From: Marinobacter alexandrii
GTDB taxonomy: Bacteria > Bacteroidota > Bacteroidia > Cytophagales > Cyclobacteriaceae
Length of the DNA: 64,000 bases
Assembly (NCBI GenBank): GCA_039984955.1
Contig: JBDWTN010000007.1
Span: forward strand, 1,372,501 to 1,436,500
Direction of reading: 5' to 3'
The first letter of the stretch is position 1. The number at the start of each line of letters is the position of its first letter. The position numbers and the translations under genes are program-made. The notes below the pieces were generated by a model. It searched no databases. It had not been told where the DNA came from and saw nothing but the letters and a program-made list of their open reading frames with translations. Of this stretch, positions 37,220 to 45,198 are shown one piece after another.

Positions 37220-38347
37220 TCACGATTTTATCAGTTTGTTAATAGCACCAACCGCTTGATCTACTTGGTTATTTGACAAACAAAGTGGTGGTAAGAGTCT
37301 TACCGTATTTGGATTGTCAGAAGATCCCGTAAAAATGTGATGCTCAAAAAGCAATTGTCTCCGCACTTCTTTTGACGGAATTTCTAGCTCAACTCCAATC
37401 ATTAACCCTTTTCCTCTCACTTCAACAACCTCTTCAATTTCATTTAGAGAGGATATCAGATACTCCCCAGTTTGCTTCGCATTATCGATCAAGTTTTCTT
37501 TTTCCAAAACTTCTAGTGTAGCAAGACCTGCTGCACAAGCAAGGTGATTTCCACCAAATGTCGTACCTAGCATTCCAAACCAGGCCTTTATTTCCGGGGA
37601 AATCAGTACTCCGCCAATTGGAAATCCATTTCCCATTCCTTTTCCAGTGGTAATTATATCAGGTGTAACTCCATAGTGCTGATGAGCAAAGAATTTACCC
37701 GATCTTCCATATCCAGATTGCACTTCGTCAACAATCAATAGAGATCCATTTGATTCGCACAATTTTTTCAGTCCATTCAAAAATTCTGATGTTGGCTCAT
37801 ATACACCAGCAATTCCTTGTATTCCTTCTACTATCACTCCTGCTACTGTTTCATCAAGTTCTTTTTCTACTGATTTCAAATCATTTAGTGGCAACCTCTT
37901 TACGTTCCCATTTTGATTAACCTTCGCAAGAATTTTTGGATTATCAGTTGCTTCCAATGCTAACGAAGTACGTCCATGAAAACCCTTATCAAATGCAATA
38001 ATCTTCTTTCTTCCTGTATGAAATGAAGCTAGTTTCATTGCATTTTCAGTCGCTTCTGCTCCTGAATTGCATAGAAAAAGATTATAGCTTGAATAGCCAG
38101 ATAATTCTCCTAATTTATCAGCCAGTTCTTCTTGCATAGAGATCCTTACTGAATTGGAATAAAATCCAAGTTTCGATAGCTGCTCCGCTACCTTTGAAAC
38201 ATAGTGTGGATGAGAATGGCCGACTGAAACAACAGCATGGCCGCAATACAGGTCCAGGTATTTAGTTCCTGTGGTATCCCACACATAGCAGCCTTCCCCT
38301 TTTATAGGTTCAATATCATATCTTGGATATACGTCAAATAACTCCAT
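37220..38347 (-). CDS. argD: Acetylornithine (or succinylornithine) aminotransferase
   Basis: 375 residues, PLP class III. GEGCYVWDTTGTKYLDLYCGHAVVSVGHSHP is typical for the family start; FLCNSGAEATENAMKLAS binds phosphate; PLP lysine in TTGKGMGNGFPIGG; FGGNHLACAAG follows. It transfers the amino group to acyl-glutamate semialdehyde. Its start overlaps proC by 14 bases, so the two are coupled. Confidence 0.94.
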   Translation of the reverse strand: MELFDVYPRYDIEPIKGEGCYVWDTTGTKYLDLYCGHAVVSVGHSHPHYVSKVAEQLSKLGFYSNSVRISMQEELADKLGELSGYSSYNLFLCNSGAEATENAMKLASFHTGRKKIIAFDKGFHGRTSLALEATDNPKILAKVNQNGNVKRLPLNDLKSVEKELDETVAGVIVEGIQGIAGVYEPTSEFLNGLKKLCESNGSLLIVDEVQSGYGRSGKFFAHQHYGVTPDIITTGKGMGNGFPIGGVLISPEIKAWFGMLGTTFGGNHLACAAGLATLEVLEKENLIDNAKQTGEYLISSLNEIEEVVEVRGKGLMIGVELEIPSKEVRRQLLFEHHIFTGSSDNPNTVRLLPPLCLSNNQVDQAVGAINKLIKS

Positions 38348-39173
38348 CTACTTTCTTGTTTATTCCAGCAATGCTGGTCATGTTGGTGATTAGGTTAAAG
38401 GAAGTCATGATGCCTTGGATGAGCGCTGAGCTAAATCCTTTGTGTTCCATCTCGTTTAGCCCAGCAATAGTGCATCCTTGTGGAGTAGTGACTTTATCTA
38501 TTTCCACCTCAGGGTGAGATTCTTGTTCTAGAATCAAAGATGCTGCTCCTTTAGCAGTCTGGACAGCTATTAATTGTGCATCCTTAGCATCAAAACCCAT
38601 TTGAATTCCACCCTGAGTAGCGGCTCTGAGGTAGCGCATAAAAAACGCTACTCCGCTCGCTCCAAGAACAGTTGCTGCTTGCATCAATTCTTCATTAATC
38701 ACCAATGTTTTACCCAGAGCTCCAAAAAGTAATTCTACTTGTGCAATAATCTCTTTGGGTTGATCAACAGCGGAAATACAAGTCATTGACTCTCCAATAG
38801 CTACGGCGGTGTTTGGCATAGCTCTAATCAATGCCGCTTTGCTTCCTAACAATGCTTCAATCTTCTTGATCGAAATCCCAGTAATAACAGAAACAACCAC
38901 TTGCCCACTTTTGAGGTGAGGTTTGATCTCAACAGAAAGTAGTTCCAATTGACTGGGCTGAACACATAGCACAACAATTCCAGCATCTGCTACTGCTTTA
39001 TTATTTTGATTTGAAACGTTAAAGCCATTGGCTTCCATGATTGAAAGGGGTTGCATGCTTCGCCTTGTGAGAGTGATTTTATCTGAGCTAGACAGCCCTT
39101 TTTCGACCAGTCCCTTTGCAATTGCAATTCCCAAATTACCCGCACCAATAATTGCTATTTTTTCCTTAATCAT
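38334..39173 (-). CDS. proC: Pyrroline-5-carboxylate reductase
   Basis: 279 residues. Rossmann motif IIGAGNLGIAIAKGLVEKGL at the N-terminus, AMPNTAVAIGESMTCIS in the middle, and the C-terminal helix domain with SPQGCTIAGLNEMEHKGF (here TTPQGCTIAGLNEME). It makes proline from P5C. Its location inside the arginine operon is a known Bacteroidota arrangement, where glutamate semialdehyde chemistry is shared. Confidence 0.93.
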   Translation of the reverse strand: MIKEKIAIIGAGNLGIAIAKGLVEKGLSSSDKITLTRRSMQPLSIMEANGFNVSNQNNKAVADAGIVVLCVQPSQLELLSVEIKPHLKSGQVVVSVITGISIKKIEALLGSKAALIRAMPNTAVAIGESMTCISAVDQPKEIIAQVELLFGALGKTLVINEELMQAATVLGASGVAFFMRYLRAATQGGIQMGFDAKDAQLIAVQTAKGAASLILEQESHPEVEIDKVTTPQGCTIAGLNEMEHKGFSSALIQGIMTSFNLITNMTSIAGINKKVDGVI

Positions 39174-39175
39174 AT

Positions 39176-40162
39176 TTAGAATGCCGAAGCTTTAAGATTG
39201 AGTCCTGTTTTTTCGTCCAGATTAAATAGAAGATTCATATTTTGCACCGCCTGTCCAGAAGCTCCTTTGAGAAGGTTATCAATTACTGAAATAACCATCC
39301 CTTGACCTCCTATTACTTTTGGATAAACTATAGCTTTATTTGTATTGACCACCATTTTCAGATCTGGATTATGATCACTTACATAGGTAAAAGGATGACT
39401 TTCATAAGCCTCTTCGTAGGCAACTCGTAAGTCTTCATCACTTACCTCTGTCGCGAAATAAGAAGTTGTTATAATTCCGCGTGAAAAAGCCCCTCGATAA
39501 GGAACAAAATTGATTCGACCATTCCACTGATCATCTAGAAGTACACAACTTTCACCAATTTCATTTAGATGTTGATGAACAAAAGGCTTATACACACTTG
39601 CATTGTTGGTTCTCCAACTAAAATGTGAAGTAGTTGAGAATGATTGCCCAGCGCCTGTTGAGCCAGTTATCCCAGAAACATGGATATCTCCATCGATGAA
39701 AGAAGCTTTAATAGCGGGCAAAATACCTAATTGAATTCCTGTAGCAAAGCAACCAGGATTAGCGATATGTGTCGCAGATTTGATTTGAGCTCGATTGATT
39801 TCGGGCAGCCCATATACAAAATCATGATTTCCTTGCAATCGATAATCTTGACTTAAATCTATCACTTTGATATTCAATAAATCAGGACTTGATTCAATAA
39901 GCCTCAGCGATTTTCCATGTCCTTTACACAGAAAAACTACGTCTAAGTCATCCGACTTAATAGTTGCTGAGAAGGCAAACTCCGAATCCCCAATTAAGTC
40001 TGTATGTACCGTTGACACTTTCTTTCCTGCCTGACTTTGACTTTGCAAAGTGACTATCTCCACATTTGGATGATGGATAAGGATTCGCAATAAATCACCT
40101 GCAGTATACCCGGCCGCACCTATGATTCCCACTCTAATTTTTTCCATAATCATTACTTTCAA
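39176..40162 (-). CDS. argC: N-acetyl-gamma-glutamyl-phosphate reductase
   Basis: 328 residues. NADP-binding VGIIGAAGYTAGDLLRILIHHP, catalytic Cys in NPGCFATGIQLGILPA, and VSGITGSTGAGQ after it. The ATG at 40162 or the one at 40147 (MEKIRVGIIG) is the true start; the second fits the family better. It reduces acyl-glutamyl phosphate to the semialdehyde. Two bases separate it from proC. Confidence 0.94.
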   Translation of the reverse strand: MKVMIMEKIRVGIIGAAGYTAGDLLRILIHHPNVEIVTLQSQSQAGKKVSTVHTDLIGDSEFAFSATIKSDDLDVVFLCKGHGKSLRLIESSPDLLNIKVIDLSQDYRLQGNHDFVYGLPEINRAQIKSATHIANPGCFATGIQLGILPAIKASFIDGDIHVSGITGSTGAGQSFSTTSHFSWRTNNASVYKPFVHQHLNEIGESCVLLDDQWNGRINFVPYRGAFSRGIITTSYFATEVSDEDLRVAYEEAYESHPFTYVSDHNPDLKMVVNTNKAIVYPKVIGGQGMVISVIDNLLKGASGQAVQNMNLLFNLDEKTGLNLKASAF

Positions 40163-40168
40163 AAAAAT

Positions 40169-40810
40169 TTAAACTGAATTTGATCTTACACTTTTGGTTA
40201 ATCGAGTCCTTTTCATTTTCATAAATCGTCCATAGAGTTTGGACTTCTTCACGACATTCCAGCGATTTTTAGATTTCTTTTTAGGATCAAAAAGCATTGC
40301 TGTACACATGCAGTTGCCTTTATTTTTACTCATTAAAATTTCATAATTCACACAGCTTTGGCACCCGTTCCAAAAGGCATCATCGGTCGTAAGCTTGTCG
40401 TAGGTGACAGGTTGATATCCTAGTTCAGAATTAATTTTCATCACAGGCAGAGAGGTGGTCAAACCAAATAATTTAGCACTCGGAAACATTTTTTTTGAGT
40501 GCTCAAATGCAAGCTTTTTAATCTTAGTTGCAATACCAGTTGAACGGTATTCAGGCTTGACTATCAAGCCCGAATTTGCAACATATTGCTTGTCGCCCCA
40601 TGTTTCAATGTAGCAAAAGCCAACTAGCATATTTTTATCTAAAACAGCTATAATGGCCTTTTTTTCGACCATTTTTTGTACGATATAGTCCGATGATCGC
40701 TTTGCGATACCGGTTCCTCTTAGCTTGGCGCTTTTTTCGATCAGCTCACAAATCTCAAAGGCAAAATGAGTATGATCAGAAGAAGCAACCTGAACGATGA
40801 ACGAGTTCAT
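40169..40810 (-). CDS. GNAT acetyltransferase heading the arginine operon
   Basis: 213 residues. GNAT motif A lies in LIVKPEYRSTGIATKIKKLAFEHS (about residues 82-105). The C-terminal third has conserved Cys residues (GCQSC, CMCTAM) and a basic tail (KKSKNRW, RFMKMKRTRLTKSVR). In many Bacteroidota a GNAT of this type opens the arg operon and is a candidate for the first, glutamate-acylating step that ArgA or ArgJ performs elsewhere; this is a link by context. It is six bases from argC and the first gene of the operon. Confidence 0.85.
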   Translation of the reverse strand: MNSFIVQVASSDHTHFAFEICELIEKSAKLRGTGIAKRSSDYIVQKMVEKKAIIAVLDKNMLVGFCYIETWGDKQYVANSGLIVKPEYRSTGIATKIKKLAFEHSKKMFPSAKLFGLTTSLPVMKINSELGYQPVTYDKLTTDDAFWNGCQSCVNYEILMSKNKGNCMCTAMLFDPKKKSKNRWNVVKKSKLYGRFMKMKRTRLTKSVRSNSV

Positions 40811-41020: not shown

Positions 41021-41053
41021 TTTGGTAAAACCAAAATTCCTTCTCTACGTTTG
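41021..41053 (+). promoter_or_regulatory. Promoter of the methionine operon
   Basis: TTTG at 41021-41024, 21 bases, TACGTTTG at 41046-41053: full Bacteroidota consensus. The start site would be near 41058, about 16 bases before the riboswitch. Confidence 0.8.
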
Positions 41054-41073: not shown

Positions 41074-41169
41074 ATCGATTTATAAAGAAGCGCCGAGAGA
41101 CAGGCTTTATGACGCGCTAGCAACCCCCCGAAAATCGGAACGGTGCTAATTCCTGAAATATAAATTGAT
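41074..41169 (+). promoter_or_regulatory. SAM-I riboswitch (S-box)
   Basis: P1 is formed by ATCGATTTATA (41074-41084) and TATAAATTGAT (41159-41169), 11 pairs with one G-U. Inside are the S-box core blocks AGAAGCGCCGAGAGA, TATGACGCGCTAGCAACC and CGGTGCTAATTCCTG, with the P3 hairpin CCGA/TCGG. This is the S-adenosylmethionine aptamer of the SAM-I class. It precedes OsmC-metY-metX-hom and should lower their expression when SAM is plentiful. The 3' strand of P1 ends five bases before the leader-peptide ATG. Confidence 0.93.
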
Positions 41170-41173
41170 TGCT

Positions 41174-41284
41174 ATGAACCAATTCAAACATTTCAGAAAA
41201 AAAACATCGGGTTTCTTAACCCGCAAATCTTCATTTATTTATTGCGCCAACGCCGGTCGGTGTTGCTGTTATAGCTGCTGCTAA
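41174..41284 (+). CDS. Cysteine-rich leader peptide of the met operon (candidate)
   Basis: A 36-codon frame, starting ATG 41174 just after the riboswitch and ending TAA 41282-41284. The first part is basic (FKHFRKKTSG, LTRKSS), the end is YCANAGRCCCYSCC: six Cys in the last 13 residues. Two hairpins lie within it: CGGGTT-TCTT-AACCCG (41208-41223) and CAACGCC-GGTC-GGTGTTG (41248-41265), the second ending at the Cys codons. A ribosome slowed at Cys codons would alter these folds. AATTG (41163-41167), part of P1, can also pair with CAATT (41180-41184), which would hide the leader ATG when P1 is open. Leader function is inferred. Confidence 0.6.
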   Translation: MNQFKHFRKKTSGFLTRKSSFIYCANAGRCCCYSCC

Positions 41285-41402
41285 TTTTCATTTGATCCAT
41301 CTGGGTTTGTGATCATCTTAGGACGAAGTGCGCCTTCATCCGGAAAAATCCATTCTATTAATTGTCTTGATCAGTTATTTACGATAAATCCATCTTTTTC
41401 AA

Positions 41403-41439
41403 ACGGTAGATCCTAGATTTTAGAATCTATCGTCCTTTT
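41403..41439 (+). terminator. Terminator-like hairpin in the met leader
   Basis: ACGGTAGAT (41403-41411) and ATCTATCGT (41425-41433) pair with one G-U, with CTA/TAG inside the loop region, followed by CCTTTT. A weak T-run makes it a candidate attenuator rather than a sure terminator. Confidence 0.5.
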
Positions 41440-41440
41440 C

Positions 41441-41475
41441 ATGACTCTGAAATGATGATCTATCATCTTGAGTCA
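41441..41475 (+). repeat. Nested dyad directly before the OsmC gene
   Basis: TGACTC and GAGTCA (outer) enclose GATGA and TCATC (inner), just 21 bases before the ATG at 41497. Could block the ribosome site or serve as an operator. Confidence 0.5.
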
Positions 41476-41496: not shown

Positions 41497-41934
41497 ATGT
41501 CAAAAGAATTAAAATTTTCCGTGAGTTCTGTCAGTGAATCTTCCGCTAAAACTAAAGTACAAACACGAGGATTCGACCTGATAGTGGATGAGCCTGAGGC
41601 ACTTGGAGGTACGAATGAAGCACCAAATCCAGTAGAGTACGTTCTCGCTGGATATGCAGGGTGTATAAATGTTGTTGCACACATAGTTGCTGAGGAATTC
41701 AAAATTCGTCTTGAAAATTTCAAGGTAGATATTGACGGATACCTTAACCCCAACAGACTCTTCGGAAAGTCATTAAAAGATCGAGCCGGATATAAAAATA
41801 TTGATGTTAGACTTCACACTACATCAAACATCGATCCTGAATTAAAAAAGAAATGGTTAGCCGAAATCAATCACAGATGCCCTGTGAATGATAATCTGAC
41901 TAATACAACTCCAATCTCATTTTCAATCAACTAA
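41497..41934 (+). CDS. OsmC family protein
   Basis: 145 residues. The two family Cys residues are visible: VLAGYAGCINVVAHIVAEE and NHRCPVNDNLTN. Known OsmC/Ohr members reduce organic peroxides with this pair; here the gene starts the methionine operon 12 bases before metY, so it may handle a sulfur compound or protect the pathway. That last point is inference. Confidence 0.88.
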   Translation: MSKELKFSVSSVSESSAKTKVQTRGFDLIVDEPEALGGTNEAPNPVEYVLAGYAGCINVVAHIVAEEFKIRLENFKVDIDGYLNPNRLFGKSLKDRAGYKNIDVRLHTTSNIDPELKKKWLAEINHRCPVNDNLTNTTPISFSIN

Positions 41935-44220
<2,286 letters not shown>

Positions 44221-44224
<4 letters not shown>

Positions 44225-45198
44225 AAAATCATAAAAAAATAGGATTATTTGGATTTGGCACTGTAGGTCAAGGCTTCACTGAAGCTCTGAAAAAGCATCC
44301 TCACTTGCCTGTTGACATTGAAAAAATATGTGTGAAGAGATTGGACCTTCCTCGCATCAATCATGAATTGTATTTCACGGATAATCCTTCTGAAATTTTG
44401 GATGACTCGGATATAGATATTGTGATTGAACTAATTGATGATGCTAATGCTGCAAAGCAATTTGTTGAAAGCGCGCTAATTAACAAAAAACATGTTATTA
44501 GTGCCAATAAAAAGATGATTGGAGAATCTTTGGATCAGGTTGCCCTATGGCATACTGAGCATTCCACTTCATTTCTTTATGAAGCTGCAGTAGGAGGTGG
44601 AATCCCTATTGTTCATTCGGTAGATGGATTTCTGAAAAATCAGGAAATAACAAAGATTAGAGGTATCCTCAATGGGTCTTCCAATTACATTCTTACCCAG
44701 ATGCAACAAAATAAATGGACTTATGAAAAAGCTTTAAACGATGCTCAAAAAAAAGGTTTTGCTGAAAGTAATCCCGTATTGGATGTAAGTGGTATGGATG
44801 CCTCGAACAAGCTCTCTATTCTTGCCTATCATGCATTTGGTGAAGTTACTTCTATGAAAAGCTGCGAACTGAAAAGTATTGAAGAGGTCACCGAAACAGA
44901 TATCAAAAAGGCCAAGCATCAAGGAAAAAAAATCAAACCGATAGCTACCATTGAGAAGATAAATGGAGGAATTCATTGCTCTGTTAAGCCGGAAAAAGTT
45001 GGGCCACAGGATTATCTTTTCAGTGTTGATTTTGAGAATAATGCTATCAGCATTGATACATTGACAAGCGGCCAACATATCGCTATTGGTAAAGGAGCTG
45101 GAGCATTACCTACTGGATCTGCTGTATTAGAAGACTTGAAGCGGGTATTAAGTGGGCATAGATATGCTGTGAAAGAAGCTAAAAAAGTACTGGCATAA
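44221..45198 (+). CDS. hom: Homoserine dehydrogenase
   Basis: 325 residues: NAD(P) domain GLFGFGTVGQGFTEAL, catalytic part with EAAVGGGIPIVHSVDG, LNGSSNYILTQM and KGFAESNPVLDVSGMDASNKL. The C-terminal ACT domain of longer homoserine dehydrogenases is absent, so feedback by threonine through that domain is not expected. It reduces aspartate semialdehyde to homoserine. The order hom last, after metX and metY, is typical of the Bacteroidota methionine operon. Confidence 0.94.

Follow-up and report, generated by a model that had tools for sequence, protein, structure and literature searches.

The methionine operon of the window (the whole 64-kb stretch of DNA analysed here) is quite probably tuned by a two-sensor 5′ leader, in which a SAM-I aptamer stands directly ahead of a leader peptide ending in cysteine and methionine codons and the two together would adjust osmC-metY-metX-hom. 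The aptamer and such a frame occur together widely: a terminal Cys cluster was found in 62 of 76 metY upstream regions with a SAM-I core in the family of the window's genome, and a Cys-ending frame in 29 of 31 SAM-I metY upstream regions elsewhere in the class. The initial annotation had predicted that metY in related genomes would be preceded, after P1, by a short Cys-coding frame and had read the combination as an arrangement sensing two signals. The first expectation was borne out by these counts, and the same conservation of the tandem makes the second probable. The absence of a Cys-rich frame in related genomes, which had been named as a finding that would overturn the idea, was looked for, and the frame proved to be widespread.

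In the window, all elements of the locus lie on the forward strand. The aptamer (positions 41077–41166) scored 66.9 bits against the SAM-I covariance model RF00162 in cmscan, above the gathering score of 44.4, and was the sole Rfam match at gathering within the 64 kb. Its extended P1 helix joins ATCGATTTATA (41074–41084) with TATAAATTGAT (41159–41169) in 11 pairs, one of them G-U, and is present in the minimum-free-energy fold of 41074–41173. Four nucleotides past this helix opens a leader frame of 36 codons, MNQFKHFRKKTSGFLTRKSSFIYCANAGRCCCYSCC (41174–41284; ATG at 41174, TAA at 41282–41284), whose peptide ends in RCCCYSCC; homologs carry a Cys/Met-ending frame in the same place. Both the S-box with an 11-pair P1 and the Cys-ending 36-codon frame just after it had been described in the initial annotation, and both were confirmed. 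Cys codons 30–32 and 35–36 (41261–41281) are candidate regulatory codons, judging from the sequence and from homologs, which encode more Cys in the leader frame than in the other two; one more Cys is encoded at codon 24 (41243–41245). Upstream, TTTG (41021–41024) and TACGTTTG (41046–41053), with a 21-nt spacer, form a promoter-like pair (41021–41053) that matches the TTTG/TANNTTTG-type consensus, which we take to be that of Bacteroidota promoters. The pattern TTTG-N17..23-TANNTTTG precedes 42 of 98 homologous aptamers, and shuffles predict 0.4. The leader frame lies between the promoter-like pair and the start of osmC at 41497, the placement expected of a leader peptide.

Two hairpins had also been proposed within the frame. 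Both are present, CGGGTT (41208–41213) facing AACCCG (41218–41223), and CAACGCC (41248–41254) facing GGTGTTG (41259–41265); the latter arms are part of a hairpin at 41244–41269 (−10.5 kcal/mol) whose 3′ arm covers Cys codons 30–32, but the stretch around it (41225–41300) is no stabler than shuffles (z −0.90). Folding placed two other hairpins (41403–41433 and 41442–41475), which lack a canonical U-tract, between the leader stop and osmC, and no canonical terminator was called behind the window leader. The operon starts 212 nt after the leader stop. It encodes an OsmC-like protein (41497–41934; PF02566, 8.6e-18), the O-acetylhomoserine sulfhydrylase MetY (41947–43272; TIGR01326, 662 bits, cut-off 495), a MetX-like homoserine acetyltransferase with an uncertain start codon (43226–44224; TIGR01392, 283.6 bits, under the cut-off of 500) and homoserine dehydrogenase (44221–45198; NF004976, 302 bits, cut-off 205; PF00742). 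A divergent cluster lies upstream of the operon on the reverse strand (37220–40810); a GNAT N-acetyltransferase in it was recognized by profile scan, and argD, proC, and argC were named from reading alone. The window's genome has a second SAM-I element, before metH, which lacks a Cys-ending frame.

A sample of 98 family genomes was searched with the window's MetY, which gave 78 places in 77 genomes, and all 78 upstream regions were read; SAM-I occurs in 96 of the 98 genomes. The leader was defined as the frame from the first ATG past the P1 3′ strand, with Cys ignored, which yielded 74 anchored frames, four of whose starts were re-chosen by length alone. In 60 of these 74 frames, two or more of the last 14 residues are Cys. 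The 62 cases given above also include G058 and G070, which stand outside the 74 since the anchor motif is absent, and in which SAM-I was found by cmscan and the Cys cluster is present. In the remaining upstream regions outside the 74, those of G005 and of the second metY of G090, cmscan detected no SAM-I. Three more family genomes, kept out of the family count, all have SAM-I, and one of them (G280, but not G206 or G288) has the cluster. The leaders are 19–60 residues long, with little common sequence outside the Cys/Met end. Their position is nearly constant: the ATG lies 8–13 nt past the P1 3′ strand motif in 62 of the 74 family leaders and in 18 of 24 elsewhere in the class. The genomes are related, and the leader counts are not independent events. 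In one relative, metY is preceded by a pair of SAM-I elements some 1.5 kb apart (G065:C3, 371546–371657 and 373101–373213).

Searches with MetY over the phylum and the class added 51 class upstream regions outside the family, 31 with SAM-I and 20 without; same-class matches from the phylum search were read down to 1e-190. Frames were taken here from the first ATG giving at least 15 codons, a rule slightly unlike that used for the family. An anchored frame is present in 24 of the 31 SAM-I regions, and in 23 of these 24 the last 14 residues include two or more Cys; eight families are represented. Five further SAM-I regions lack the anchor motif (SAM-I by cmscan in all five) and have a Cys-ending ATG frame, which in L239 and L264 is preceded by the opening of another ATG frame. 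At L291 the pattern missed the core, cmscan gave SAM-I at 56.7 bits, and the frame ends in CCCC, and at L246 SAM-I occurs without an ATG frame. Locus L254 of G272, which has no SAM-I, was left out of the class count. Eleven loci from other Bacteroidota classes, six of them with SAM-I, were read outside these counts, and none has a Cys-rich frame. The arrangement had been expected in Bacteroidota at large; the expectation holds within the window's class but not in the other classes sampled.

The composition of the leaders speaks for codons, rather than a nucleotide motif, as the target of selection. In the family, Cys accounts for 272 of 1036 residues in the last 14 positions versus 32 of 1746 in the rest, and Met for 90 of 1036 versus 18 of 1746. 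The leaders from other families show the same excess near the stop codon (Cys, 128 of 336 versus 7 of 598; Met, 49 of 336 versus 8 of 598). Over the two sets, Cys makes up 26–38% of the last 14 residues versus 1–2% elsewhere in the leader, and Met 9–15% versus 1%. The excess is confined largely to one reading frame: in the last 45 nt of the family leaders, counted before the four starts were re-chosen, Cys codons number 255, 86, and 21 in the three frames and Met codons 85, 12, and 13 (n = 1067 codons each). Both synonymous Cys codons are used (TGT 190, TGC 114), which, together with the in-frame excess of Cys and Met, argues for selection on the codons. A chance frame was ruled out by the counts in relatives and by this frame control. 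The proposal that the leader senses cysteine agrees with the enrichment of Cys codons and is incomplete, since Met codons are enriched as well. Fewer than two Cys in the last 14 residues were found in 14 of the 74 family leaders (one of which, in G041, has CCCC slightly earlier); with the two of three extra family genomes that lack the cluster, these leaders indicate that the Cys input is, as far as sequence can tell, dispensable in some lineages.

SAM-I elements at other genes served as a comparison. None of 21 such elements in the family is followed by a Cys-rich anchored frame, in a set where 11 lack the anchor motif and were examined over 120 nt only, and where the first ATG of several of the other 10 is that of the gene itself; five (L003, L006, L010, L016, and L022) precede distant MetY relatives (33–37% identity). 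Canonical terminators occur at 5 of the 21, with 0.2 expected. Behind SAM-I plus leader, terminators were found at 3 of 74 family loci (1.0 expected; the window is not among them) and at none of 24 elsewhere in the class, in a scan in which gaps over 350 nt were trimmed to 260. An intrinsic terminator after the leader, as in a classical attenuator, is therefore not found above chance. Like SAM-I elements in general, the window aptamer exceeds the gathering score of RF00162 and stands ahead of a methionine operon; unlike the five loci with terminators, it lacks that platform and has a leader frame rich in Cys and Met codons instead. Since terminators are present at control elements and near chance behind the leader, the leader class of SAM-I elements seems to have a different output. 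At five loci (L003, L005, L006, L007, and L028), SAM-I elements at other met genes carry a textbook terminator, in four of the five after the P1 3′ strand GATAAGT, and form another kind of expression platform, alongside the leader type.

The region between the leader and the genes was examined for other structures. It is stabler than shuffles (mean z −1.64, n = 60), yet no single universal hairpin was found for all homologs, and pairing of the Cys codons with downstream sequence across the stop codon was not above shuffles (mean z −0.01). In seven loci (L043, L046, L044, L049, L050, L039, and L040), the last Cys codons and the stop codon can pair downstream (UGUUGCU..AGCAACA) in a consensus fold, and a further hairpin, in which a GTGAC stretch is invariant, comes next; the six of these loci that were scanned have no Rfam match at gathering besides SAM. 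Sequestration of the metY start was not supported: the mean unpaired probability in the 40-nt stretch preceding the metY match was 0.56–0.74 in 90 rows.

Because terminators are near chance behind SAM-I plus leader, the riboswitch probably acts through translation of the leader, and the leader would report charged tRNA-Cys and tRNA-Met. The nearly constant distance from the P1 3′ strand to the leader ATG means that the riboswitch overlaps the start region of the leader and not that of metY. The P1 3′ strand would be placed in the translation-initiation region of the short peptide, so that binding of SAM may set the state of this region; the terminal Cys and Met codons would pause the translating ribosome when charged tRNA-Cys or tRNA-Met is short, and the state of the leader ribosome would set the amount of osmC-metY-metX-hom mRNA or protein. 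An enzyme that fixes sulfide into homocysteine would in this way be tuned by SAM and by cysteine and methionine supply together. Translation of the leader, pausing or stalling of the ribosome, the output step, and the polarity are steps that we infer, and the feature set that they are meant to explain belongs to one class of SAM-I elements only.

As to polarity, we lean modestly toward a relay in which SAM closes P1 and silences the leader and expression falls. Translation of the leader, with pausing on the Cys codons, would then raise expression, for example by keeping Rho off a C-rich, G-poor leader. Rho is a candidate on grounds of composition: the gap after the leader has much C and little G (C/G 1.6), a bias found to the same degree in the leader frame (1.59), and the window's genome encodes Rho. 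The leaders with fewer than two terminal Cys (n = 15) bear on this polarity. Their open frames are longer than those of shuffles (combined p 9e-5; singly, only two fall below p 0.05, at 0.03 and 0.049), and they stop nearer metY than the other leaders, at a median of 81 versus 115 nt (p 3e-5, gaps of at least 350 nt left out); at most 50 nt separate the stop from the metY match in 6 of 15 low-Cys leaders versus 1 of 83 others. The retention of long frames that end near metY suggests that translation of the leader itself matters and may help metY.

The opposite polarity is less likely and would make the leader an either-shortage switch in which expression falls only when SAM and Cys/Met are both ample. 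When SAM is low, the P1 3′ strand would fold on the first leader codons, hiding the start and leaving the operon on by default. When SAM is bound, the leader would be translated; with Cys and Met ample the ribosome would finish and repress, and otherwise it would pause and the operon would stay on. The near-absence of terminators suits such a default-on leader, and an appropriate alternative hairpin can be drawn in the window. It spans 41153–41196 on the forward strand, with the leader ATG in its loop, and pairs a block of 7 (CTGAAAT, 41153–41159, with ATTTCAG, 41190–41196) and a block of 5 (AATTG, 41163–41167, with CAATT, 41180–41184); because it uses the P1 3′ strand, it excludes P1. Its predicted stability is −6.9 kcal/mol in a 69-nt fold and −5.4 kcal/mol for 41153–41196 alone (z −2.11). 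In a duplex test on 98 leaders, the P1 3′ strand was more complementary to the first 8–12 codons than in a swap control (z −5.0 at +1..+25); the signal fell to z −2.2 at +13 and was gone by +19. The initial annotation had suggested that the block of 5 could hide the ATG when P1 is open, and this pairing is strong in the window and in the duplex test but weak in a fuller folding test, where the gain was small (z 2.3) and confined to a GGTGCC sub-group (2.65 versus 0.06). Predicted access to the start codon drops only from 0.654 with P1 formed to 0.622 with P1 open, and is lower still in the swap control (0.604). The either-shortage switch also leaves unexplained why low-Cys leaders keep long frames ending near metY, which fits the relay.

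A further point in favor of the either-shortage switch comes from the sulfur physiology of the window's genome. No convincing serine acetyltransferase was found in this genome, which is 99.9% complete: the best of five TIGR01172 matches reached 41.5 bits, and the two best proteins matched the NeuD sugar acetyltransferase model better (72.8 bits, under the cut-off, and 175 bits). At E ≤ 1e-30, TIGR01172 matches occur in 66 of 98 family genomes and not in that of the window, although the model fits the family poorly, its curated cut-off being reached by none of the 98. A cystathionine beta-synthase is encoded (513 bits, cut-off 510), as are a cystathionine gamma-synthase/lyase-like enzyme and a second MetY-like enzyme. 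With cystathionine beta-synthase present and cysE not found, MetY may feed both methionine and cysteine in the window's genome. A link between cysE absence and leader Cys content across the family was not significant (p 0.37), so the reverse-transsulfuration argument applies to the window's genome and is not a general reason for the leader.

The metY genes without SAM-I provided insight into the leader on its own. Cmscan found SAM-I in none of the 20 class upstream regions of this kind. In ten of the 20, a short frame encodes three or more Cys close to its end, for the most part interspersed with Met, and strong or canonical terminators stand at five of these ten leaders. The Met/Cys leader is, on this comparison of upstream regions, not tied to SAM-I. 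The Met share of Met plus Cys is 45% in the SAM-less leaders versus 22% and 27% in the SAM-I classes (p 1.5e-4 versus all, 0.0045 versus non-family; the samples are small and related, and the SAM-less frames were picked by Cys), and SAM-I seems to replace one sensor. At L260, L267, L277, L281, and L283 (480 nt upstream of metY), two Met/Cys leader-terminator modules in tandem were recognized by eye, and the computed listing gives one terminator per locus. We give about an even chance to a design shared across Bacteroidia, in which the riboswitch controlling metY, whose product is the entry enzyme of organic sulfur, would have as its output translation of a bispecific Cys/Met leader rather than the gene itself, making a serial gate for SAM, tRNA-Cys, and tRNA-Met without an intrinsic terminator, and in which SAM-less lineages would use Met/Cys leader-terminator modules, often two in tandem and with more Met codons, as if the sensors shared the work.

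These SAM-less leaders, with Met and Cys codons and terminators, also speak against a SAM-I riboswitch with a single input, followed by a frame that is incidental or an untranslated structural element. The Cys cluster is missing in 14 of 74 relatives, and SAM-I at other genes stands without such a frame, as a single input would allow; the in-frame excess of Cys and Met codons, the mixed use of TGT and TGC, and the recurrence of the tandem in eight other families make this reading very improbable. Cys clusters can bind metal, so the peptide could act in trans as a metal-binding or as a sulfur or redox small protein rather than as a cis leader, but this is slightly less probable still, given the variable length, the scant shared sequence outside an end in which Cys and Met are intermixed, the lack of an NCBIfam match for the window peptide (one sub-threshold Pfam match was obtained), its place between SAM-I and the gene, and the terminators behind such frames in SAM-less lineages.

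In classical attenuators of the trp and his type, codons for the end product lie near the end of the leader peptide. The two-sensor leader resembles them in this respect and differs in that no terminators beyond chance stand behind SAM-I plus leader, those at half of the ten SAM-less metY leaders notwithstanding. A close likeness among published systems is to the Cys-run leaders before actinobacterial cys operons (PMC1262725), short frames with a Cys run near the stop and, in the accessible part of that paper, no obvious terminator and a suggested role for Rho; PMC13236596 cites Canestrari et al. 2020 on the polycysteine leader peptides of actinobacteria. Those leaders precede cys operons or cbs, and the part of PMC1262725 available mentions no riboswitch, whereas the leaders described here follow SAM-I immediately, have Met codons among the Cys codons, and belong to metY. 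The uORFC-8-2 motif (PMC8632094) is likewise an upstream frame with tandem Cys codons, before cysS in Rhodobacterales; as presented in the sections seen of that source, it has an apparent intrinsic terminator stem, no riboswitch is mentioned, and gene and phylum are different. Riboswitches for B12 that act with upstream frames are described in PMC11260477: at ppe2 of M. tuberculosis, the riboswitch controls the short frame uPPE2, on which the downstream gene depends. There the ligand is B12 and not SAM, the available excerpt of PMC11260477 does not describe the frame as an amino-acid sensor, and the main mode of control is termination-reinitiation at a 4-nt overlap. Leader peptides in Flavobacterium and Bacteroides are hinted at in excerpts of PMC9723704 and PMC7366714. 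Both SAM-I and polycysteine leaders are known individually, and no earlier report of the tandem of both was found among the matches listed from the literature searched, mostly without subscription papers. If the proposal is correct, the leader would be a natural two-input RNA gate, made of a metabolite aptamer and a ribosome-based amino-acid sensor, in many families of a major class; it would bear on how SAM-I acts in Bacteroidota without a terminator behind it, and on the tuning of metY where MetY may feed methionine and cysteine. The natural variants (SAM-I plus leader, leader plus terminator, tandem leaders, and Cys-less leaders) make the logic testable.

The breadth of the arrangement, as distinct from its frequency, was surveyed by a pattern scan of named genomes, which gave at least 120 stretches at loci preselected for three Cys codons. 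Among the stretches listed, 50 Bacteroidota loci were read by eye, and 32 of them have an S-box with a Cys-coding stretch behind it; they come from Mucilaginibacter, Pedobacter, Sphingobacterium, Fulvivirga, Hymenobacter, Lewinella, Haliscomenobacter, Saprospiraceae, Flavobacteriia, Cyclobacteriaceae, and others. Cmscan, run on 18 of the 32, found SAM-I in all 18. A 33rd locus (L182) has SAM-I with an unanchored Cys stretch. At the four Hymenobacter loci, an ATG frame of the usual type was not found, and a GTG start was read by eye in L127. Of the 32 loci, 19 are followed by MetY with an identity of at least 70%; at one other, in a Chitinophagales MAG, SAM-I and a Cys-rich leader precede cysH, which encodes a PAPS/APS reductase (L126, 6140–6862). 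SAM-I with Cys codons also stands at three non-met loci where the next frame of at least 120 residues encodes a SusC/RagA-type receptor (L112, 7184–7999), an amino-acid permease (L137, 3966–5414), or a protein with a weak RimK-like match (L127, 4427–5497).
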